The notes under the pieces are model-generated. The model was not told the DNA's origin. It did not search any database and saw only the letters and a program-made list of their open reading frames with translations. The position numbers were made by a program, and so were the translations under genes. Positions 29,343 through 41,137 of a DNA stretch of 64,000 nt are shown here, one piece after another; within the stretch, counting starts at the first letter, position 1, and every line of letters begins with the position of its first letter. The stretch is from a bacterium (lineage in GTDB: Bacteria > Bacteroidota > Ignavibacteria > SZUA-365): NCBI GenBank assembly GCA_020444325.1, contig JAHLLD010000002.1:350882-414881 (forward strand), read 5' to 3'.

Positions 29343-30155
29343 TCACTGGGCGGAGTTCATGCGCACGTACTGCAGAAATTCCTGGCGTGTCTCGGCATCC
29401 CGGAATGTGCCGCTGAATTCTGATGTCACCGTGCTGCTGTGCGTGTCCTGTATGCCGCGCGCGGCGACGCAGAAATGTTTCGCATCAATCACCACAGCAA
29501 CATCCTCGGTATTAAGCACACGTTTGAGTTCCTCGGCGACCTGCCTTGTGAGGCGTTCCTGCACCTGGGGACGGCGTGCGTAATAATCGACAATGCGGTT
29601 GATCTTCGAGAGTCCGATAACCGTTCCGGTGGAGACGTAAGCAACATGCGCGCGTCCGACAATGGGGAGCAGGTGGTGTTCGCAGGTCGTATGCAGGCTG
29701 ATATCTTTTTCCACCAGCATTTCACCGTACTGAAAACTGTTTTTGAATACCTTCGCCTCGGGACGATTCTCTTCTTTCAATCCCTGGAAAATTTCCTTGA
29801 CGTACATTTTCGCCACGCGATGCGGCGTACCGCTCAGACTGTCGTCGGTCAGATCAAGTCCGAGAGTGTGAAGGATTTCTGTCATATTGCGCTCAATGAT
29901 CTGCATTTTCTCGTCGTCACTGAGAACGAAAGCATCATCGCGCAGGGGCGTGTCAACTGAGGAGGCGGCGTGATAATCGCCCTGTAAATCCACATCCTGC
30001 ATGTCGGCGTACTCAGCAAGTATATGGGCCCCATTGCTTTTCCCGAGTGTGCCATTGCCATTCGGGTGCATCCCATTCCCGTTCACATGCGTGCCATTGC
30101 CATTCGCATGCCTGCCATTCCCGTTCGTATGTCCGTTCAATCCGTTTGTATTCAT
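29343..30155 (-). CDS. folE: GTP cyclohydrolase I with His/Asn/Gly repeat extension
   Basis: The 270-residue protein ends in a normal type IA GTP cyclohydrolase I domain (about 80-270), which opens GTP to dihydroneopterin triphosphate for folate or pterin synthesis. Zinc ligands sit in 'TTCEHHLLP' and 'HFCVAARG'; the 'TSEFSG' end is canonical. Ahead of it is an unusual low-complexity N-terminus with four heptads of the form H-x-N-G-N-G-x (residues 9-36). The extension is not needed for catalysis in the family. The regular histidines suggest metal binding, but a flexible linker is equally possible. Divergent neighbours look zinc-related. A start at one of the internal methionines would drop the repeat. 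Confidence 0.92.
   Translation of the reverse strand: MNTNGLNGHTNGNGRHANGNGTHVNGNGMHPNGNGTLGKSNGAHILAEYADMQDVDLQGDYHAASSVDTPLRDDAFVLSDDEKMQIIERNMTEILHTLGLDLTDDSLSGTPHRVAKMYVKEIFQGLKEENRPEAKVFKNSFQYGEMLVEKDISLHTTCEHHLLPIVGRAHVAYVSTGTVIGLSKINRIVDYYARRPQVQERLTRQVAEELKRVLNTEDVAVVIDAKHFCVAARGIQDTHSSTVTSEFSGTFRDAETRQEFLQYVRMNSAQ
30048..30131 (-). repeat. Four 21-bp repeats encoding HxNGNGx heptads
   Basis: Four adjacent 21-base units at the 5' end of folE encode His-x-Asn-Gly-Asn-Gly-x. Units differ at synonymous and variable positions, as expected of a minisatellite that has been maintained under coding constraint or has aged. Confidence 0.85.
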
Positions 30156-30692: not shown

Positions 30693-30779
30693 TATAATCA
30701 ACGGCATTGTCCGCATTCTCCTTGTCTGCGGATGTATTCATATGCAGTTACAAGTATTCAATCATCGCAAGGAAGTACC

Positions 30780-31226
30780 ATGCGCAAAGCATTTCTCATA
30801 CTCGCACTCACATCTCTTCCATTTTTATCCGCCTGCGACGAAGACGACCCCGTAACGCCGCAGGAAGAACATGTCGAGGCAGTCGGTATCGTTCTGTATC
30901 AGGCTGGAAACCCTGTTGCCCAGGTTCTTCGCGGGGAAAGCACCGATACGTTGTTCGCAACTGCAGACAATACGAGCGACATGTTCGAAGCCCGCTTTTT
31001 CGATGAGCACGACGACATCTTCGAGGCCGATGCCGAACATCACATGCTGGACTGGGAAATTGCCGACACCACGGTAGCATCGGTTGTGCAGGACAGTGGA
31101 AGTGAAGGGAGTTTCAGCTTCCGTCTCCGGGGGAAAACGCAGGGAGCCACAAGCATAGAATTCTTCATCCTCCATGAAGGACATGCAGACTTCCGTTCCG
31201 GCAGCCTGCCGCTGGTCGTGCAATGA
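30780..31226 (+). CDS. His/Asp-rich lipoprotein linked to TonB receptor
   Basis: ATG 30780, preceded by AAGGA, starts a lipoprotein signal with lipobox 'FLSAC' (MRKAFLILALTSLPFLSACDEDD). The ~130-residue mature domain contains clustered potential metal ligands: 'DEHDD', 'DAEHHMLDW' and 'HEGHADF'. The rest is beta-rich and Ig-like in pattern. The stop overlaps the receptor start (ATGA), so both are made together. I infer a periplasmic or surface metal-binding partner of the receptor; no family name can be given with confidence. Confidence 0.78.
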   Translation: MRKAFLILALTSLPFLSACDEDDPVTPQEEHVEAVGIVLYQAGNPVAQVLRGESTDTLFATADNTSDMFEARFFDEHDDIFEADAEHHMLDWEIADTTVASVVQDSGSEGSFSFRLRGKTQGATSIEFFILHEGHADFRSGSLPLVVQ

Positions 31227-33499
31227 TGTGCGAAGCAAAGCAGCCCCGAAATTCCCATACGACACGGTCATGGCTGCTACGGGCAGCCATGACCGGTATG
31301 GTGCTTCTTTTGACCGGCGGATCGCTGTTGGCGCAGCAGGCAGGACTCCGTGGTATCGTACTGGACGCGGAAAGTGGAGCATCGATTGAAAATGCATACC
31401 TGTTCATTTACCCGCAGTCCGATCCTGGCGCAGCACGTGAACAGACGACGCAGGAAGAGGGGAGTTTCTTTTTTGAAAAGCTGAAGCCGGGGCCGTATTC
31501 CCTTCGCATCAATCGGGCCGGGTATCACGAACAGAGTATGAATGTCGACGTTCCTGCCCACGAAGAACGGGACATGATCATCTATCTCCGCGAGCGCAAT
31601 TACCGAACCGAACCCGTGGTCGTCACCGGCACGCACATGCACTCCCGCGTGGAAGATCCATCCGAAGTCGCCACGGTGTTGCGCGGAAAAGACCTCGACA
31701 GGGAGCTCGGTCTGACACTTGCCGCCACGTTGAAGAATGAAACGGGCATCGCCATGCGCGCCATGGGACCCGCGCCGGCGCGCCCCGTGATACGTGGACT
31801 CGGGGGCGATCGCGTCCTCATCACCGAGGACGGGAACAAGACCACAGACCTTTCTGCAACCTCCCCCGATCATGCGGTGACCATTGAACCGTTCGCTGCC
31901 GAGCGCATCGAAGTTCTGCGCGGTCCCCGCGTGCTCACGCAGTCTCCGGTCACACTCGGCGGAGTCGTCAACGTCATCCGGCATGACATTGCAATGGACA
32001 GGCATGAGCACGTGCTCGGCTCCGTCGGTGTATACGGTGAGTCCGCCAACCGCGGATACCTGGCGTCCGCGCATGCCAGCGTCCCGCTCGCGTCCTTTAT
32101 TTTACGTGGCGACGTAAGCCGACGTGAGGCAGGAGATCTCGATACGCCTGAAGGACGACTGCACAATTCCTCCGCTGCTTCAACCGACATGGGATTTGGT
32201 GGCAGTTACATTGACGGGGGCAGCTACGGCGGCGCCTCATATCGAGGCTACGACCTTGCGTATGGCGTTCCGGGAGGTTTCGTGGGTGCGCATCCGAATG
32301 GAGTGGATATCGAACTGGAGCGCCGCCAGATCAATGCGCGCGCTTCCTACGCGGTCGACGGAAGCTTTCTTCACGATGTATCGGTGCAGGCAAGCCGCGC
32401 GTATTACCGGCACAAGGAGTTTGAAGCCAGTGGACTCATCGGATCGGAATTTCGCATCGTCAATTATCCGGGACGCATATGGATGACGCATCACAGTGTC
32501 GGACCGATTGACGAGGGAAATATCGGTCTCAATTATGAGTACCGCGACTTCAGCGTGGGCGGCTTCGTATTTACCTCACCAAGTACGTCCATGAATCTAG
32601 CACCGTATCTTTTTGAGCGATGGACGATGGGCCCCGTGGAGATGGAAGCTGCCGTCCGCTACAACTACGACCGCATTACTCCTCTGCATGATGACCCGAA
32701 CGCGCGTATCGGGCACATCCGTGAGCGCGAATTTCATACCTGGTCCGCCTCCGCCACCGCGCTGATCGATGTGACCGACATCGTGCATGTGGGAATGAAC
32801 GTCAGCCGCAGCAGCAGGGTACCGACTATTGAGGAGCTGTTTTCGGAAGGACCACATCTCGCGGCCTACTCCTATGAGGTGGGCAACCCCAACCTTCCCG
32901 AAGAACACGGTATCGGGACGGAGCTTTTTCTCTATCACCGTTGGGATGCCCTGTATTTCAATATAAACCTGTTCCGTAATGCCCTGCAGTCTTTCATCAC
33001 ACCACGCAATACGGGTGAGATCAACTACGCGACATTTCTGCCGGTATACGCGACCAGCAGTGTGGAGGCCCTGCTGTACGGGGCTGAGGCACAGATCGGC
33101 TGGCATATCCTGCCAGAGCTGCAGGTTGATGCCTCCGTGAGCTACACACACGGTTCCTTCGCGGAAACCGGGGATCCGCTGCCACAGATTCCCCCGGTCA
33201 AAGGACGAGTAGGAGTGACATGGAAACGGGAAACTCTGCAGCTCGGCATGCACAGCACGTTTGCGGGACGGCAGTCCCGTGTGGATGCATTCGAAGAGGA
33301 GACGGCGGGATATGCTATTCTGGGTGGGTTCGCGCAGTATTCGTTCAGCACAGGAGCACAGGTACACAACCTCTCACTTTCCGCGGAGAATGTGCTCGAC
33401 CAGGTGTACCGGAATCATCTTTCCCGCGTCAAGGCCGTCCTTCCTGAGGCAGGTGTCAATCTCAGGTTGACATACAAGCTGCATTTCGAATTGCACTGA
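31223..33499 (+). CDS. TonB-dependent receptor, ZnuD-like
   Basis: The 758-residue outer membrane receptor has a signal region (to about 38), a carboxypeptidase-regulatory-like domain ('GLRGIVLDAESGASIENAYLF', about 41-125), a TonB-box-like 'EPVVVTG', a plug and a 22-strand-type barrel. The plug contains 'RPVIRGLGGDRVLITEDG', then 'SPDHAVTIEPFAAERIEVLRGP', the pattern seen in the zinc receptor ZnuD. It therefore probably imports zinc or another metal. The gene overlaps the His-rich lipoprotein by four bases. It ends 13 bases from the convergent kinase-like/barrel gene, and no terminator is seen there. Confidence 0.85.
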   Translation: MMCEAKQPRNSHTTRSWLLRAAMTGMVLLLTGGSLLAQQAGLRGIVLDAESGASIENAYLFIYPQSDPGAAREQTTQEEGSFFFEKLKPGPYSLRINRAGYHEQSMNVDVPAHEERDMIIYLRERNYRTEPVVVTGTHMHSRVEDPSEVATVLRGKDLDRELGLTLAATLKNETGIAMRAMGPAPARPVIRGLGGDRVLITEDGNKTTDLSATSPDHAVTIEPFAAERIEVLRGPRVLTQSPVTLGGVVNVIRHDIAMDRHEHVLGSVGVYGESANRGYLASAHASVPLASFILRGDVSRREAGDLDTPEGRLHNSSAASTDMGFGGSYIDGGSYGGASYRGYDLAYGVPGGFVGAHPNGVDIELERRQINARASYAVDGSFLHDVSVQASRAYYRHKEFEASGLIGSEFRIVNYPGRIWMTHHSVGPIDEGNIGLNYEYRDFSVGGFVFTSPSTSMNLAPYLFERWTMGPVEMEAAVRYNYDRITPLHDDPNARIGHIREREFHTWSASATALIDVTDIVHVGMNVSRSSRVPTIEELFSEGPHLAAYSYEVGNPNLPEEHGIGTELFLYHRWDALYFNINLFRNALQSFITPRNTGEINYATFLPVYATSSVEALLYGAEAQIGWHILPELQVDASVSYTHGSFAETGDPLPQIPPVKGRVGVTWKRETLQLGMHSTFAGRQSRVDAFEEETAGYAILGGFAQYSFSTGAQVHNLSLSAENVLDQVYRNHLSRVKAVLPEAGVNLRLTYKLHFELH

Positions 33500-33512: not shown

Positions 33513-36122
33513 TCAGAACGCGAAGCCGGCTGCGACATCGAGACGCGTGGTCTCATGGGAGAGTCCTATCGAGGCACTGAAGGTGTATGCGCGATGGACA
33601 GGTGCGAACCACAATCCGCCGCCCCAGGAGGGATGCCAGATATCGTGGTTCTGCTCCTCTTCGAGGAATACGCGTCCTGTCTCCACGAATAGCAGTGCGC
33701 CTATATCCGTTGGGACGATGAAAGAGCTGTTTCCGAGAAGACCCCGCCATTCGACGCCACCGTACATCGCAGCATCGCCCGCGAAGCGATTGAGCTCATA
33801 CCCGCGAGCTGAAGAGAGTCCACCGAGAAACGCAGACTCGAAGAACGGATGTTTCCCGTGATTATACTGTCCGCCCGCACGGAAGGCCAGCGTCCACTCG
33901 GTGATGAAATCCACCGGCAGATAGGCACGCAGGTCAGCATTCACCGTTTCAAAGCGTGAGACCAGGTCGAGCATCGCAGGGTAGTAGCGCACACGTACAT
34001 CGGAGAAAACGCCGGATGAAGGCCAGGCTTCACTGTCCCTGCTGTCGTAGCACAGGCCGGCTTCCACGTGAGCCAGGGATGTGTTTTCCGTTCCCAACGG
34101 TTCGACGAGAGACAGATAGAGGGTTTCGTCATCCCGGTCGTTGGTGACATAGCGGAAGCCAAAGCCCGCCGAAAGTGTTACATACTTGCTGAGGAAAAAA
34201 TGCACAGCGGGACTGAAATGCAGCTGTGTCTGCTTGACCGCGTAACTGTATTCAGCACCCCGATCCACTTTCGTTCTGTTTCCGAGACCGAAGAAATTCA
34301 AAACTTCGTAGCCGGAGTATCCGGCGGAAAGCGTGAAACTGTGTCCTGCAATCACACGGCGGAAATCGGCGGTGAGCTCTGCCTTGCCCAGCATTTCAAG
34401 CGGGGCGAAGCCTGCAAGCAGACTCAGCCGGTAGTCGTAGGGATCGCTGCGGAATCCGTAGCGTGTGAACACTGGTCCGCCCCCGATCAGGATGCCAAGA
34501 TCGTCGTTGTAGCCAGCCATGACACCGGGAAGTAATTCCCAACCCCAGTCGCGTTGTGGGGGTTCGTAGCGTTCCTCTTTCGTTTTCGCCTCCCTGACAT
34601 GCGTGCGGTCAATGAGGGTTCCGGAACCATAGGTAAAGGACGAATTGTCGCCATGGTCATAGAAACAGGTCTGGCTGCGGAACAAGGGGAGCGCTCCCAC
34701 GCGTGAACTGTCGATGAAAGTGTCGCGTCCGTGTCCTCCGATTACGCGCACAATAATGCCGCGCGGTGCGTGTCCCCGAACAATGGCCACATCGTCGCCG
34801 CCTTCGAGATAAATGCGCAGTTCCGAGGTCTCATCGGGGAAGAACGAGCGGTGGAAGAACGGGGGGCGCTCGAGTTTATTCCTGCTGCGGCCAATGACTT
34901 CAACGCTGCCGTCTGCATGACGCGTGACCTCGAGCATCTCATCTTCATCGCTCCCGTAGATATCGACGTCCAGTGCCAGTACCTCGTAATAATCCCGTAT
35001 CGCATCGCGAAGCTGCGCCCGGCGTGACTGCAGGCGATGATACAGCACATTGCCACCTTCTTCCGGCAGGCCTTTTGGAAATGCATCGATGGACTCCTGC
35101 AGCACCTCGTCACTGAGCAGCGGGAGGAGGTACGTGACAAGCGAATCGTAGGCAGACCAGGGGACGCCGCTCAGGAAGCGCCGGTCGAGATGCCTGCCGC
35201 TGTATGTGAGATACTGCATGCCCGGATAATCTTCGTCACAGGATTCAAGCTGCGGGATGAGAACGGTTGCGAGCCACGGGATGAGTCCGTCGTACTGACA
35301 GAACGCCTGATCCCTGTCTCGCGGAATGGGGTACCACCAGTCGAGTTCTCCTTCTTCGTATCGCGCCCAGCGCCACTGATCGGTATGCCGGTCCCAGTCA
35401 CCCATGAAAATATCGATGATGCGCGCCTTGAGGAATTCAACGCTTTGCACGCGGTCTTCGGTATCGTGCTGCACTTTGTCGAGCAGGGAAAACGTACCCA
35501 CGACTTTGTCTGATCCGGCGAAGCCGCGCTCTTTGTCGATTTCGTCCGGATGCAGTTCGATCATCCCGGGCATGCCACCGAATTCTTTTCTGAACTCACC
35601 GAGTGCAGGACTGTCAGGCATGATGCAGAGTGTCGGTGGTGCATGCAGCGTACCGGTAGATTTCAGGATCGGTGAAGCCGCAAGTGCTCCGTAGGGATGC
35701 GCCGTGCTGATGAGGTCCTGCAGGATGTCGTCGACGAAGGTGTCACGCAGCTTTTCCTCGAGCGTTTTCGAAGGATCCTTGTTGAGCGACCTGAATTTGT
35801 ATTCGCGTCCGTCGCCGCCCTTCAGCCGCAGTGAAGCTGTCTGCATCCCTCCGCCGCGATGGAGGGGAGTGAGCCCACCACCATACGATGCCAGGTCGAG
35901 GTATGGCATGCGCACAGGCGCCGTCCATGCATCGCGCCAGAGATCACCGAAAAAGAAACGATGTAAGCTACCGGCTGCGTACTCGGGTCCCGCCACGACA
36001 GTGTCGGAAGCTGCCACACCCGTGTTGGCGCCGGGGGACTGCGCAAGTGATGGAACGGCAGAATACAGCAGGGATGCAAGAGTAAATAGGACGATACCTG
36101 CGGGGATGCTGACTCGTCTCAT
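33513..36122 (-). CDS. Kinase-like N-domain fused to Omp85-like outer membrane barrel
   Basis: I start at ATG 36122, with AGGAG seven bases upstream and a signal peptide ending PSLAQ; the product is 869 residues. Residues ~75-330 do not look like POTRA domains. They contain a Gly-rich turn then 'YKFRSL' (Lys109), later 'FMGDWDRHTDQW' (Asp244-Arg-His) and 'PIPRDRDQAF' (Asp269-x-Asp271). This order resembles the ATP lysine, catalytic DRH and metal-binding acidic residues of HipA/CotH/Fam20-type atypical kinases. The C-terminal ~350 residues form an Omp85-like barrel ('FLGGLSSARGYELNRFAG', terminal Phe). The barrel is well supported; kinase activity is inference. Confidence 0.75.
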   Translation of the reverse strand: MRRVSIPAGIVLFTLASLLYSAVPSLAQSPGANTGVAASDTVVAGPEYAAGSLHRFFFGDLWRDAWTAPVRMPYLDLASYGGGLTPLHRGGGMQTASLRLKGGDGREYKFRSLNKDPSKTLEEKLRDTFVDDILQDLISTAHPYGALAASPILKSTGTLHAPPTLCIMPDSPALGEFRKEFGGMPGMIELHPDEIDKERGFAGSDKVVGTFSLLDKVQHDTEDRVQSVEFLKARIIDIFMGDWDRHTDQWRWARYEEGELDWWYPIPRDRDQAFCQYDGLIPWLATVLIPQLESCDEDYPGMQYLTYSGRHLDRRFLSGVPWSAYDSLVTYLLPLLSDEVLQESIDAFPKGLPEEGGNVLYHRLQSRRAQLRDAIRDYYEVLALDVDIYGSDEDEMLEVTRHADGSVEVIGRSRNKLERPPFFHRSFFPDETSELRIYLEGGDDVAIVRGHAPRGIIVRVIGGHGRDTFIDSSRVGALPLFRSQTCFYDHGDNSSFTYGSGTLIDRTHVREAKTKEERYEPPQRDWGWELLPGVMAGYNDDLGILIGGGPVFTRYGFRSDPYDYRLSLLAGFAPLEMLGKAELTADFRRVIAGHSFTLSAGYSGYEVLNFFGLGNRTKVDRGAEYSYAVKQTQLHFSPAVHFFLSKYVTLSAGFGFRYVTNDRDDETLYLSLVEPLGTENTSLAHVEAGLCYDSRDSEAWPSSGVFSDVRVRYYPAMLDLVSRFETVNADLRAYLPVDFITEWTLAFRAGGQYNHGKHPFFESAFLGGLSSARGYELNRFAGDAAMYGGVEWRGLLGNSSFIVPTDIGALLFVETGRVFLEEEQNHDIWHPSWGGGLWFAPVHRAYTFSASIGLSHETTRLDVAAGFAF

Positions 36123-36302: not shown

Positions 36303-37187
36303 ATGCGTTCTCGTTTCCGTACGCGTTCCTGCCACATCGTTTGTCGCATCGGTCTGTTGACGGTCTTGCTGCTGTCCGGGATGTCTTCCGCAGATGCGCA
36401 GCATGCACCGTCCACTTCATTCTCAGACAGTTCGCAAATCTCTGAGAAAGGGATGATTGATGTGTTCACTGACGACCTGCGCATTCTTGGGCAGGACGGT
36501 CTCGCCTACATCCTGGCACCGCTGTCGTTTGATTCACACGACTGGATTTACGCCGGGGGCGTTCTGGGAGTAACCGGCGGATTGATGCTCGGTGATGAGA
36601 CCTGGCAGGAAATCCCCAGAAGCAATCAGAACACAGCGACACTGGATGTCGCGAGAACCTTTGATCGTGGCGGACATCTGCCGACCATGGAAATTGCAGC
36701 GGGTGCGACATATCTCACAGGGTGGCTTGGTGGGTGGGAAGAAGTGCGCGTGACGGGGCGACTTCTCCTCCAGTCGTTGATCTACAGTGGCATTACCTGG
36801 TATGTTGTCGCGGTCAGTGCAGGACGCAGCCGTCCCTCCGGTCACCTCGGTGCGTATGAATTCAATCCCGGTCAGACCGACAGCAACCAGCAGTCCATTC
36901 CTTCGGGACATACCAATGTGGCATTTTCCATCGCGACCGTGCTCGCTTCCCGTATCGATCACTGGGCGGCGTCGGTACTTCTTTACGGTGCCGCGGCGGG
37001 TGTCGGACTGGGACGATGGTACCAGGATCATCACTGGGCATCGGATGTCTTTCTCGGGGCCGTTATCGGTTACACCGCGGCGAAATTCGCCGTGCACCGC
37101 GAGGAAGAGAGAATGAAGAAGAAGGGAAGACCAGACTGGAATCTCGGCCTCTCCCCTCAGGGCGTATCAGTGCAAGTTTACTTTTAA
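36303..37187 (+). CDS. PAP2-family phosphatase
   Basis: The 294-residue protein has an N-terminal signal or anchor and several hydrophobic helices. It carries the acid phosphatase signature in order: 'AGRSRP' (C1), 'PSGHT' (C2) and 'GRWYQDHHWASD' (C3). Such enzymes dephosphorylate lipids (phosphatidate, undecaprenyl diphosphate) or other phosphate esters at the outer face of the inner membrane. It is the first gene of a plus-strand run leading to polyphosphate kinase, 14 bases before the SixA-like gene. The basic C-terminal helix is cytosol-like. The exact substrate is not evident. Confidence 0.88.
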   Translation: MRSRFRTRSCHIVCRIGLLTVLLLSGMSSADAQHAPSTSFSDSSQISEKGMIDVFTDDLRILGQDGLAYILAPLSFDSHDWIYAGGVLGVTGGLMLGDETWQEIPRSNQNTATLDVARTFDRGGHLPTMEIAAGATYLTGWLGGWEEVRVTGRLLLQSLIYSGITWYVVAVSAGRSRPSGHLGAYEFNPGQTDSNQQSIPSGHTNVAFSIATVLASRIDHWAASVLLYGAAAGVGLGRWYQDHHWASDVFLGAVIGYTAAKFAVHREEERMKKKGRPDWNLGLSPQGVSVQVYF

Positions 37188-37200
37188 TCCTGGAGCGACA

Positions 37201-37695
37201 GTGAAAACGTTGTTTATCGTACGACATGCAAAATCCAGCTGGAAGCAGGAGTTTCTGACCGACTTCGAGCGGCCGCTCAACAAGCGCGGTCACCGGGATG
37301 CCCCGGTGATGGCTGCCGTTCTCAAGGAGCGTGGTGTGAAACCGGATTACATCCGCTGCAGTCCCGCAAACCGTGCGCTCACCACCGCACGCCTGTTGGC
37401 GGAAGGACTCGGCTACGATCTCGATCATATCGAGACAGACGAGCACATGTATGGCGCAGGCGACCGCCAGTTGAAAACCATCGTTCAACAGCTCCCCGAC
37501 TCTGCGGAGACAGCCATGATTGTCGGACACAATCCCGGCATGATGATGCTTGCGAACCGGCTGGCAGGGTTTGAAGAAGACAATCTCCCCACCTGCGGTA
37601 TCGTCTGCGTGCGATTCGAGGCGGAAACGTGGAGTGCGGTCGATGACCGTGAAGGCACGATTGAATATTTTGAGTATCCGAAAAAACATACCTGA
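37201..37695 (+). CDS. SixA-like histidine phosphatase
   Basis: This 164-residue protein of the histidine phosphatase (phosphoglycerate mutase-like) superfamily starts at GTG 37201, with GGAG upstream. The phosphate pocket is 'IVRHAKSSW' (His9 nucleophile), with the second histidine in 'IVGHNPGMM'. SixA members remove phosphate from phosphohistidine, for example on phosphotransfer proteins. Its position between a PAP2 phosphatase and ppk1 suggests phosphate metabolism; this is inference. Confidence 0.87.
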   Translation: MKTLFIVRHAKSSWKQEFLTDFERPLNKRGHRDAPVMAAVLKERGVKPDYIRCSPANRALTTARLLAEGLGYDLDHIETDEHMYGAGDRQLKTIVQQLPDSAETAMIVGHNPGMMMLANRLAGFEEDNLPTCGIVCVRFEAETWSAVDDREGTIEYFEYPKKHT

Positions 37696-37716: not shown

Positions 37717-39798
37717 ATGAAAGAATATCCCCTTTACGACAGGGAGCTCAGCTGGGTAGCCTTCAATGGCAGGGTCCTTCAGGAAGCCGCCGATGATCGC
37801 GTCCCTCTTTACGAGCGTTTGAAATTCCTCGCCATTTATTCATCCAATCTCGATGAATTTTTCCGCGTGCGTATCGCGGGTATCCGTAGCCTGATGTCGC
37901 TCGCGAAAAAGAAACGCGAAGAGCTCGAGCTCGATCCTGCGGCGCTGCTCGGAGAGCTGTATACCCGTATCGACCATCAGCAGGAAGAGTTCGGACGCAT
38001 TTTCCAGGAGCTGCTCGGCCACCTGCGCTCGCGCGGCGTGCAGCTGCTGACCGAAGAGGAAGTCGGCGAGCAGCAGCTGCTGACCATTCGCAGTTATTTC
38101 CGGGAAAATGTCAGGCCCTTTCTCGATGCGCACATACTGGGTATGCGCAGGAAAGATGATTTCCTCCGCAACCGCGCGCTGTACATGCTGGTGTCTCTCA
38201 AGCCGTTGAGTGGCGAGGACGCCGAGGTAACGGGCTGTGTGACAATTCCCACCGACACCCTGCCGCGGTTCGTGCCGCTTCCGACCGAGGACGGGACGCA
38301 TGCATACATGTTCCTCGATGATGTCATCAGGATGAATCTTCCGGTGGTATTTGAAGACTGGGAAGTGGACGGTGCGTGGTCGGTGAAGCTGAACAGGGAT
38401 GCGGATCTGCGCATCGAAGACGAGTTCTCGGGCGATATCGTCAAGAAAATTCAGCATGCACTTTCCAAACGCGAGACTGGCGTTCCCGCGCGCTTCCTGT
38501 ACGATCCCGGCATGCCCGATGCCCTGCTGCGCAGGGTACGCAAGCATTATGGACTGAAAAAGGAAGATCTGTTTCCCGGTGGACGGTATCACAATTTCCA
38601 CGACTTCTTTTCCTTCCCGAACCCTCTCGGTGCGGAGGTGAAGGACGAGGAGCTGCCCGCACTCGAATACCTGCCCTTCGCGCAGGCCACATCGCTCTTC
38701 GATGCCGTGCGGGAGCGCGACCATTTGCTGCATTTTCCCTACATGCAGTTCGATCCCGTAGTGCGCTTTCTCGAAGAAGCTGCGCGGGATGAAGCGGTGG
38801 AGCAGATCTCCATCACCCTCTATCGCATCGCCTCGCATTCCGCTATTGGAAATGCGCTGATGGATGCCGCACGTCAGGGCAAGCGGGTCAACGTATTCAT
38901 GGAAATCAAGGCCCGTTTCGACGAGGAAGCGAACATTTTCTGGTCGGAGCGGCTCAAGGAAGCCGGTGCCAACGTCATGTACAGCATCCCGGGATTGAAA
39001 GTCCATGCCAAGATGTACCATATCGTGCGGCGGGAAGGGAAGAAGAAACGCCATTACGTGTATCTCGGCACGGGAAATTTCAACGAGAAGACGGCAGGAC
39101 TTTACTGCGACCACGGCTACTTCACCGCGGACAAGGAAACGGGAAAGGAAGCCGCCGCCGTATTCGATATTCTCTCCAAACGGCGCGTAGGATATGAGTT
39201 CTCTCACCTGCTTGTTGCCCAGTTCAATCTCCGCAAAGAGATCAACCGGCGCATCGAACGCGAAATCGCACACGCGAAAGAAGGGCGTCCCGCGTCCATT
39301 CTGATGAAGATGAACAGCCTGGAGGATCCGAAAATCATCCGCCGGCTCTACCGGGCATCGCGCGCCGGTGTGCAGGTCACGCTGATTGTTCGCGGTATCT
39401 GCTGCCTCGTCCCGTCGATGGACGGCGTGAGCGAGAACATCGTCGCCCGCAGTATCGTCGATCGTTATCTGGAGCATGCCCGGGTGTACCAGTTCCACAA
39501 TGACGGGGAGGAGGAAGTGTTTCTCGCCTCCGCCGACATGATGCGGCGCAATCTCAACCGGCGCATCGAAGTCGCCTTCCCGGTAAAGGATCCGGCCCTG
39601 ATGGCGGACCTGCATGCGATGCTGGATGCGCAGCTCAGCGACGACACCAAGGCGCGTCTCATCGATCCGGAACAGCAGAACAGTTACTTCTTCGCCGATG
39701 CGCATGCGGAGACTGCTCGTGCGCAGACGGCATTTTACGCATACCTGAAGGATCGTGATTATACGCGATTGCCTGGAGATGATGGACCGCAGGATTGA
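37717..39798 (+). CDS. ppk1: Polyphosphate kinase 1
   Basis: The 693-residue enzyme polymerises phosphate from ATP into polyphosphate reversibly. The N-terminal domain starts with the canonical 'LYDRELSWVAFNGRVLQEA' and 'SNLDEFFRVRIAG'. The two phospholipase D-like catalytic domains carry the autophosphorylated histidine in 'GLKVHAKMY' (His430) with 'YLGTGNFNEKTA', and the second active-site histidine in 'VYQFHND' (about 594). It is complete. It follows the SixA-like gene by 21 bases and precedes the HD-DUF5706 gene; Ppx/GppA or PhoU genes, common partners, are not present nearby. Confidence 0.96.
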   Translation: MKEYPLYDRELSWVAFNGRVLQEAADDRVPLYERLKFLAIYSSNLDEFFRVRIAGIRSLMSLAKKKREELELDPAALLGELYTRIDHQQEEFGRIFQELLGHLRSRGVQLLTEEEVGEQQLLTIRSYFRENVRPFLDAHILGMRRKDDFLRNRALYMLVSLKPLSGEDAEVTGCVTIPTDTLPRFVPLPTEDGTHAYMFLDDVIRMNLPVVFEDWEVDGAWSVKLNRDADLRIEDEFSGDIVKKIQHALSKRETGVPARFLYDPGMPDALLRRVRKHYGLKKEDLFPGGRYHNFHDFFSFPNPLGAEVKDEELPALEYLPFAQATSLFDAVRERDHLLHFPYMQFDPVVRFLEEAARDEAVEQISITLYRIASHSAIGNALMDAARQGKRVNVFMEIKARFDEEANIFWSERLKEAGANVMYSIPGLKVHAKMYHIVRREGKKKRHYVYLGTGNFNEKTAGLYCDHGYFTADKETGKEAAAVFDILSKRRVGYEFSHLLVAQFNLRKEINRRIEREIAHAKEGRPASILMKMNSLEDPKIIRRLYRASRAGVQVTLIVRGICCLVPSMDGVSENIVARSIVDRYLEHARVYQFHNDGEEEVFLASADMMRRNLNRRIEVAFPVKDPALMADLHAMLDAQLSDDTKARLIDPEQQNSYFFADAHAETARAQTAFYAYLKDRDYTRLPGDDGPQD

Positions 39799-39859
39799 AT
39801 TGCATGCAGGCAAGGACTATTTTCCAATCATAGCAACCCGCGACAACGGAGCGTCTCCC

Positions 39860-41137
39860 ATGGCCGAAGAACATGTCTCTCTGACGGAACAGGCTTCTTC
39901 CCACGTGTTCAAGCATTTCACGAAACACCTCGGGAAGGATTACAGCTTTCACAACTTTGCGCACACCGCTGAGGTGGTCGAGGCCGTGGTGGAAATCGGT
40001 GAGGCGAGCGGGCTGCAGGGCCAGGATCTGGAAGTCGTCGTCCTCGCCGCCTGGTTTCACGACACGGGCATCACCGAGGTGTACACGCATCACGAACAGG
40101 CAAGTGCAGATTTCGCTGAACGCTTTCTAAAGAAGCGGCAGTATGATCGTGATGCGATCGCGGCTGTTCGAAACTGCATCCTCGTCACTGAACTCGACGT
40201 CGCTCCCACGACGCTTCAGGAAAAAGTGATCTGTGACGCGGATCTCCTGCACATCGGGAGGAAACGATTCTGGAGCCGTGCACAGCTGCTGCGACAGGAA
40301 CTGGCCGCCGTCGCAAAACAGGAATTCAGCGAAGAGGAATGGCTGCGGAAGCAGGTCACATTTCTTGAAGGACGCACGTTTTATACTGACTACGCCAGAG
40401 CCGAATACCAGGACCGACTGGATAAAAACCTGGCTACGGTGAAAACAGGCCTGGCTGCAGTGGAGCGTGGGGAAGACGTTGATTTTGCTTCTCTGGCTCC
40501 GAAAGGAAAAAAGAAAAAGAAGGACAAACAGTCCGGAAGCAACCAGGCAGCAGGGGTGAAGGAAATACTCGGGAAAGGTGATCGCGGCGTGGAGACGATG
40601 TTCCGCATCACCTCACGCAATCACGTTAGCTTCAGCTCCATGGTCGACAGCAAGGCCAACATTATGATCAGTATCAATGCGTTGGTCATCTCGGTCATCA
40701 TCAGCGTGCTGTTCCGGAAACTCGATACCAATCCCTACATGGCCGTCCCCACATTCCTTTTCCTGGCCGTCTGCCTGACAACCATTGTCTATGCGGTGCT
40801 GGCCTCGCGCCCCAAGGTCACCAGCGGCATGTTTACGCGGGAGGATATCGAACAGAAGCGGGCGAACCTGCTGTTTTTCGGAAATTTCTACAATGTGCCC
40901 GTTGATGATTTTGAATGGGGCATGCGTGAAATGCTGAAGGACAAAGATTACCTCTACGGGAGCATGATCCGGGATTTCTATTACCTCGGACAGGTGCTGG
41001 GACGTAAATACCACCATCTGCGTGTATCCTACAACGTATTCATGTACGGCTTCGTCGTATCCATCCTTCTGTACGTGGTCATGTTCCTGCTCTTCGCCGA
41101 TCAGCCCATTGATCTGCTGCCGCTCGGGACTGGCTGA
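39860..41137 (+). CDS. HD-domain phosphohydrolase fused to DUF5706 (PycTM-like) membrane module
   Basis: I use ATG 39860 (GGAG nearby); an earlier in-frame start at 39755 would overlap ppk1. The 425-residue protein has an HD domain (about 1-200) with His31/His35, 'FHD' (His67-Asp68), 'HHEQ' (77-78) and Asp127. A Lys-rich linker (GKKKKKDK, about 216-223) leads to a region with 'SSMVDSKANIMISINALVIS' and three hydrophobic helices (about 267-286, 293-315, 392-412), the DUF5706 pattern renamed Pycsar effector (PycTM). HD enzymes hydrolyse phosphate esters, including nucleotide second messengers. No nucleotide cyclase is adjacent, so a Pycsar defence role is not supported; linkage to ppk1 points to phosphate or nucleotide signalling. 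Confidence 0.82.
   Translation: MAEEHVSLTEQASSHVFKHFTKHLGKDYSFHNFAHTAEVVEAVVEIGEASGLQGQDLEVVVLAAWFHDTGITEVYTHHEQASADFAERFLKKRQYDRDAIAAVRNCILVTELDVAPTTLQEKVICDADLLHIGRKRFWSRAQLLRQELAAVAKQEFSEEEWLRKQVTFLEGRTFYTDYARAEYQDRLDKNLATVKTGLAAVERGEDVDFASLAPKGKKKKKDKQSGSNQAAGVKEILGKGDRGVETMFRITSRNHVSFSSMVDSKANIMISINALVISVIISVLFRKLDTNPYMAVPTFLFLAVCLTTIVYAVLASRPKVTSGMFTREDIEQKRANLLFFGNFYNVPVDDFEWGMREMLKDKDYLYGSMIRDFYYLGQVLGRKYHHLRVSYNVFMYGFVVSILLYVVMFLLFADQPIDLLPLGTG

Follow-up and report, generated by a model that had tools for sequence, protein, structure and literature searches.

What could be the function of a protein that joins an exported domain with kinase-like motifs to a barrel of the outer membrane? 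This question is raised by a gene on the minus strand of the window, by which we mean the whole 64,000-nucleotide stretch of DNA analyzed here. We consider it probable, at roughly 60%, that the product is an enzyme with an atypical kinase fold, which is anchored in the outer membrane, faces the periplasm, and takes part in an envelope phosphate module.

Domain layout and orientation

The open reading frame at 33513-36122 that was reported in the initial annotation is real, and the plus strand of the same interval is full of stops. The nearest relatives are recorded as Ignavibacteria and Bacteroidetes. The features of the gene, with the evidence in brackets, are as follows.

33513-36122, minus strand: whole gene, 869 aa (open reading frame and translation; full-length homologues in relatives)
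36039-36122, minus strand: Sec-type signal peptide MRRVSIPAGIVLFTLASLLYSAVPSLAQ, residues 1-28 (translation, by inspection)
34863-36008, minus strand: predicted kinase-fold domain, residues 39-420 (AlphaFold2 model, fold matches, CotH profile match)
35838-35855, minus strand: Gly-rich stretch GGGMQT, residues 90-95 (homologue conservation)
35796-35798, minus strand: K109, unconserved (homologue counts)
35778-35792, minus strand: R111 to K115, with the candidates for the basic residue that contacts ATP (homologue conservation)
35370-35399, minus strand: putative catalytic-loop motif DWDRHTDQWR, residues 242-251, with D244, H246, and Q249 (conservation; CotH/HipA alignment)
35301-35330, minus strand: acidic motif PIPRDRDQAF, residues 265-274, with D269 and D271 (conservation; CotH alignment)
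33516-34505, minus strand: Omp85-type barrel, residues ~540 to 869 (PF01103, 16 model strands, BamA-family folds)

The signal peptide is followed in the protein by the kinase-fold domain, a beta-rich linker, and the Omp85 barrel. The motifs annotated initially are all present, with some positions to be corrected: in the translation, YKFRSL occupies residues 108-113 and GDWDRHTDQW residues 241-250, which places DWDRHTDQW at 242-250 instead of 244-250, and RDRDQAF is found at 268-274. In the linker (residues ~423-497; 34632-34856, minus strand), GGDD and GGHGRD motifs resemble calcium-binding RTX-like turns.

Regarding the C-terminal part, an Omp85 barrel with the motif GGLSSARGYE had been proposed, and this was borne out by a match to PF01103 (E 5e-18, residues 622-825, 66.1 bits vs. 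a cut-off of 24), by the 16 barrel strands of the full-length predicted model, and by the best fold matches of the barrel model, which were BamA/TamA barrels. The absence of POTRA repeats also held in Pfam and NCBIfam scans of the protein, which gave no POTRA family and recognized nothing in residues 29-600; the place of these repeats is taken by the kinase-fold domain and the beta linker. Typical members of the Omp85 superfamily carry one or more N-terminal POTRA domains, and members without POTRA repeats have been described (PMC4104836). Considering that the barrel is a genuine one with a conserved loop motif, the protein might function in protein assembly or translocation, with the N-terminal domain merely substituting for POTRA. 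We regard this as very unlikely because the domain also occurs without a barrel, as apparent lipoproteins encoded beside a phosphoesterase, and carries a conserved active-site-like set of residues, and because PlpD demonstrates that an Omp85 barrel is able to carry a periplasmic enzyme domain (PMC11116518).

The domain had also been called secreted, which is correct in the sense that the signal peptide is expected to export it and in no further sense. The N-terminal domains of Omp85 proteins normally face the periplasm. Since the enzyme domain of PlpD, which was long held to be surface-exposed, was moreover shown to be periplasmic (PMC11116518), we infer by analogy that the periplasmic side is the most likely location of the kinase-fold domain.

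Predicted fold and active-site residues

A HipA/CotH/Fam20-type kinase had been postulated for the N-terminal domain, and the structure prediction and fold search that were named beforehand as the refuting test returned atypical kinases. Residues 39-420 were modeled with AlphaFold2, template-free, from an alignment of nine natural homologues, and the predicted model, which is of moderate confidence (pLDDT 74, pTM 0.74, with values below 50 for domain-model residues 238-269), has a two-lobed kinase fold of the HipA/CotH/Fam20/PI4KII class. The best Foldseek matches in the PDB were CtkA (E 2e-5), Fam20C (E 6e-4; 4kqa), and PI4KII (E 3e-3). In VIA-align, in which models without a clear match usually reach a best Z of 7-8, Z was 13.7 over 260 residues for PI4KII, 12.9 for CtkA, 12.5 over 240 residues for CotH (5jd9), and approximately 10 for VPS34/PI3K and HipA.

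A profile of 68 homologous domains matched a CotH profile from related genomes (P 1.4e-4 local, 5.8e-6 global), and P values ranged from 0.06 to 0.86 for the controls, which were reversed profiles and profiles of seven unrelated families. This alignment placed GDWDRHTDQW on the GSWDDY region of CotH and PIPRDRDQAF on its FIPYDYDNTF. In the comparison with a HipA profile, GDWDRH coincided with GNADAH, but the match did not reach significance (P 0.06). PF08757 (CotH) gave no match for the window protein at E up to 1 or, with the limit raised to E 10, for nine domain sequences, and neither the protein nor these nine sequences matched PF07804 (HipA) or any other kinase family in Pfam. Searches of solved kinases by sequence alone (phmmer, nine-row profile) returned nothing significant, with CtkA at E 0.89 only. 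Three separate CotH matches are present elsewhere in the genome of the window.

Conservation was assessed in 104 non-redundant homologous domains, after an earlier round with 79. The proposal that a catalytic DRH and metal-binding Asp residues follow each other in kinase order gained support: D244, H246, D269, and D271 align with the CotH motifs and, because they are kept in 95, 93, 100, and 98 homologues, respectively, are conserved beyond chance. Similar counts were obtained for Q249 (98) and for the Gly-rich stretch (G90, 99; G91, 100; G92, 89; Q94, 95). In 90 of the 104 homologues, D244, H246, D269, and D271 occur together, and R111, K115, D136, D237, D242, R245, W250, and R270 are invariant in these 90.

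While the 90 intact sites support the proposed catalytic and metal-binding residues, they do not support Lys109, the proposed ATP lysine, which is Lys in only 29 of them. The kinase interpretation therefore withstood the refuting test named beforehand as regards the fold and four of the five residues, and failed it as regards Lys109. Among all 104 homologues, this position is occupied by Lys in 31, Val in 31, Arg in 11, and Ala in 11; K109 is thus ruled out by conservation as the ATP-binding residue, varying freely even when the site is otherwise intact. The beta-3 motif of HipA relatives is YILKP, and a hand alignment puts R111 of YKFRS at the HipA lysine, each being located three residues after the beta-3 Tyr. 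Judging from these sequences, the invariant R111 or the invariant K115 is more likely than K109 to be the basic residue that contacts ATP; the global CotH alignment favors neither of the two.

The remaining 14 of the 104 domains, about a tenth, are degenerate. Since these homologues are full-length despite lacking the catalytic residues, and since the periplasm has no known ATP supply, the protein might be a pseudokinase, the domain of which would bind a nucleotide or a phosphorylated ligand and, with no catalysis, would act on the barrel or a phosphatase partner as a gate or regulator. This appears quite unlikely to us because the complete DRH and RDRD set is retained in 90 of the 104 homologues, and binding by itself would not normally require such conservation. 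Degenerate copies occur in kinase families generally. One of the 14 is a degenerate paralogue with GDWDRDAEQW in the genome of the window itself (L041, contig C4, 3021-7280, plus strand), which has DRD for DRH and EDRD for RDRD and is likely a pseudo-enzyme. The paralogue has an N-terminal extension of 500 residues (L039); we rejected this as a fused domain because it is most likely an open frame upstream of a later start.

Fused and neighboring genes

Of 395 genomes searched in the phylum of the window, 143 had a domain match, as did 60 of 200 genomes of a second phylum, that of a Longimicrobiaceae MAG (L005). These matches point to a large family, without a Pfam model, in about a third of the sampled genomes of the two groups. 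Among the sampled architectures, 25 consisted of the kinase-fold domain and barrel, 18 of a phosphoesterase, kinase-fold domain, and barrel, and five of the kinase-fold domain alone, several of which had apparent lipoprotein signals. In two genomes (G035 and G291), the phosphoesterase, kinase-fold domain, and barrel are encoded by consecutive separate genes, two with apparent lipoprotein signals, and these trios adjoin genes that resembled ABC-2 transporters when functions were read by eye. The phosphoesterase (PF00149) carries the motifs GDxG, GDNxY, GNHD, xHHP, and GHxH, a combination that we take to be characteristic of purple acid (tartrate-resistant) phosphatases. Since kinase fold, phosphoesterase, and barrel are fused in some genomes and adjacent in others, we argue that they serve one process. 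A search of the genome of the window, which had no positive control, found no phosphoesterase partner.

Two barrel-less kinase-fold genes lie head to head at L093 and L094, one intact and one degenerate with the DRH site lost, and a separate phosphoesterase gene is located approximately 6 kb away, which suggests a pair of enzyme and pseudo-enzyme. At L092 and L100, a degenerate kinase-fold domain is combined with the loss of several phosphoesterase motifs, as if both activities had disappeared together (two cases only). At L084, the phosphoesterase motifs are absent though the kinase site is intact.

Four genes on the opposite strand follow the gene in the window.

36303-37187, plus strand: PAP2-family phosphatase, the divergent neighbor (PF01569, E 1e-17; kept in close relatives)
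37201-37695, plus strand: SixA-like histidine phosphatase (PF00300; conserved neighbor)
37717-39798, plus strand: polyphosphate kinase PPK1 (PF13089, PF02503, PF17941, PF13090)
39755-41137, plus strand: membrane protein with HD domain and PycTM (PF01966, PF18967; single copy in the genome)

This divergent order beside the gene is maintained in close relatives. Across 44 loci (39 from the search of the phylum of the window together with L002, L003, L005, L006, and L007), the neighborhood of the kinase-fold gene contained an HD/PycTM gene in 27 cases and PPK1 in 13. In a second group of 19 loci, which comprises L005 and genomes from its phylum (L005 being counted in both samples), PPK1 was found in eight, a separate phosphoesterase in seven, and both in four; in L005, the open frames of the phosphoesterase, kinase-barrel protein, and PPK1 directly follow each other in this order on a single strand and overlap. 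Against a crude chance rate of approximately 1% per locus, this clustering is far from random, with P values being only indicative because the loci share ancestry and are mostly high-scoring matches.

Other neighbors were also observed. A small secreted protein or lipoprotein without a Pfam match (30732-31226) overlaps the start of a TonB-dependent receptor in the window (30732-33499 together, plus strand), and L002 and L003 have the pair beside their kinase-barrel genes as well. A GTP-cyclohydrolase-I-like open reading frame (29343-30155, minus strand) has an N-terminal segment with many Asn, Gly, and His residues (NGHTNGNGRHANGNGTHVNGNG...), which may result from the way the start was chosen or may represent a metal-binding tail. 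On Hymenobacter plasmids (L156 and L157), family members have RND efflux genes as neighbors, together with the lipid-phosphate phosphatases UppP or PAP2, a possible envelope-stress setting.

In our preferred reading of an anchored enzyme in an envelope phosphate module, the signal peptide would export the protein, the C-terminal 16-strand barrel would serve as the membrane anchor (or conduit), and the kinase-fold domain in the place of POTRA, most likely on the periplasmic side, would probably transfer phosphate to an envelope molecule, namely, a protein, glycan, or lipid. D244 is the putative catalytic residue and D269 and D271 the putative metal ligands, and R111 and K115 may hold the donor phosphates. 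The domain would work with the purple-acid-phosphatase-like phosphoesterase that is fused or adjacent in many relatives; none was found close to the present gene, which has the PAP2 phosphatase as its neighbor instead. PPK1 may provide a link to polyphosphate metabolism, and its clustering suggests polyphosphate as a donor, substrate, or regulator. ATP is normally unavailable in the periplasm, which counts against a kinase. In a more specific scheme, which we hold to be speculative and rather improbable, a self-contained extracytoplasmic phosphate cycle would operate at the outer membrane, in which the domain draws on polyphosphate made by the clustered PPK1, or on a different exported donor, instead of ATP, the phosphoesterase undoes the reaction or trims polyphosphate, and the barrel is the anchor or conduit.

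The kinase-fold enzyme may also perform another chemistry on an envelope substrate as a lipid kinase, a nucleotidylyltransferase (as SelO), or similar, which we judge to be unlikely overall. Lipid phosphorylation is nevertheless a serious alternative because the lipid kinase PI4KII ties as the best fold match and lipid-phosphate phosphatases are nearby in some genomes, such as the PAP2 that adjoins the present gene and the UppP or PAP2 that accompanies RND efflux genes near the Hymenobacter plasmid copies; the apparent replacement of the beta-3 Lys by Arg is also consistent with a different chemistry. However, the Z values of PI4KII, CtkA, and CotH are nearly tied, so the fold cannot choose between a lipid and a protein kinase, and lipid phosphatases are less widespread as clustered neighbors than PPK1 and HD/PycTM.

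Returning to the anchored enzyme, the family appears to comprise exported kinase-fold domains that have a tether in the outer membrane and a phosphatase as a fusion partner or clustered gene. Provided that these domains are active, they would constitute a system that phosphorylates proteins, glycans, or lipids in the envelope of Gram-negative bacteria, and the clustering with PPK1 makes the extracytoplasmic phosphoryl donor a directly testable question.

Comparison with known systems

The architecture is partly known already because a survey of the Omp85 superfamily recorded proteins with PF00149 and an Omp85 barrel (Heinz and Lithgow, 2014; PMC4104836). Its 'Metallo' subfamily, in which barrels carry an N-terminal PF00149 enzyme domain, resembles the present protein as an enzyme-barrel fusion and differs from it in that Pfam found no PF00149 domain in the window protein. 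The survey names only PF00149 in this group, and the word 'kinase' is absent from its text (PMC4104836). PlpD, an Omp85 barrel with an N-terminal patatin enzyme domain, is likewise an enzyme-barrel fusion. In the literature within our search, which had most subscription journals outside its range, we found no description of the kinase-fold part, an Omp85-linked kinase, or the PPK1/SixA cluster.

Among kinases, HipA, CtkA, and PI4KII are cytosolic or host-cell enzymes. They resemble the domain in fold, and the GNADAH of HipA is similar to GDWDRH, whereas their beta-3 Lys apparently corresponds to an Arg here. Fam20C (Foldseek E 6e-4) is, similarly, a kinase of the secretory pathway, but is eukaryotic, has no barrel, and aligns only loosely with the model (rmsd 18-20). 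CotH of B. subtilis phosphorylates spore-coat proteins and is inactivated by substitutions of Asp228 and Asp251 (CotH numbering; PMC7821199). The likeness to CotH extends from the fold (Z 12.5) to the profile match (P 1.4e-4) and the aligned acidic motifs, whereas the present domain falls outside PF08757, has DRH in place of the DDY of CotH, and is fused to an outer-membrane barrel.
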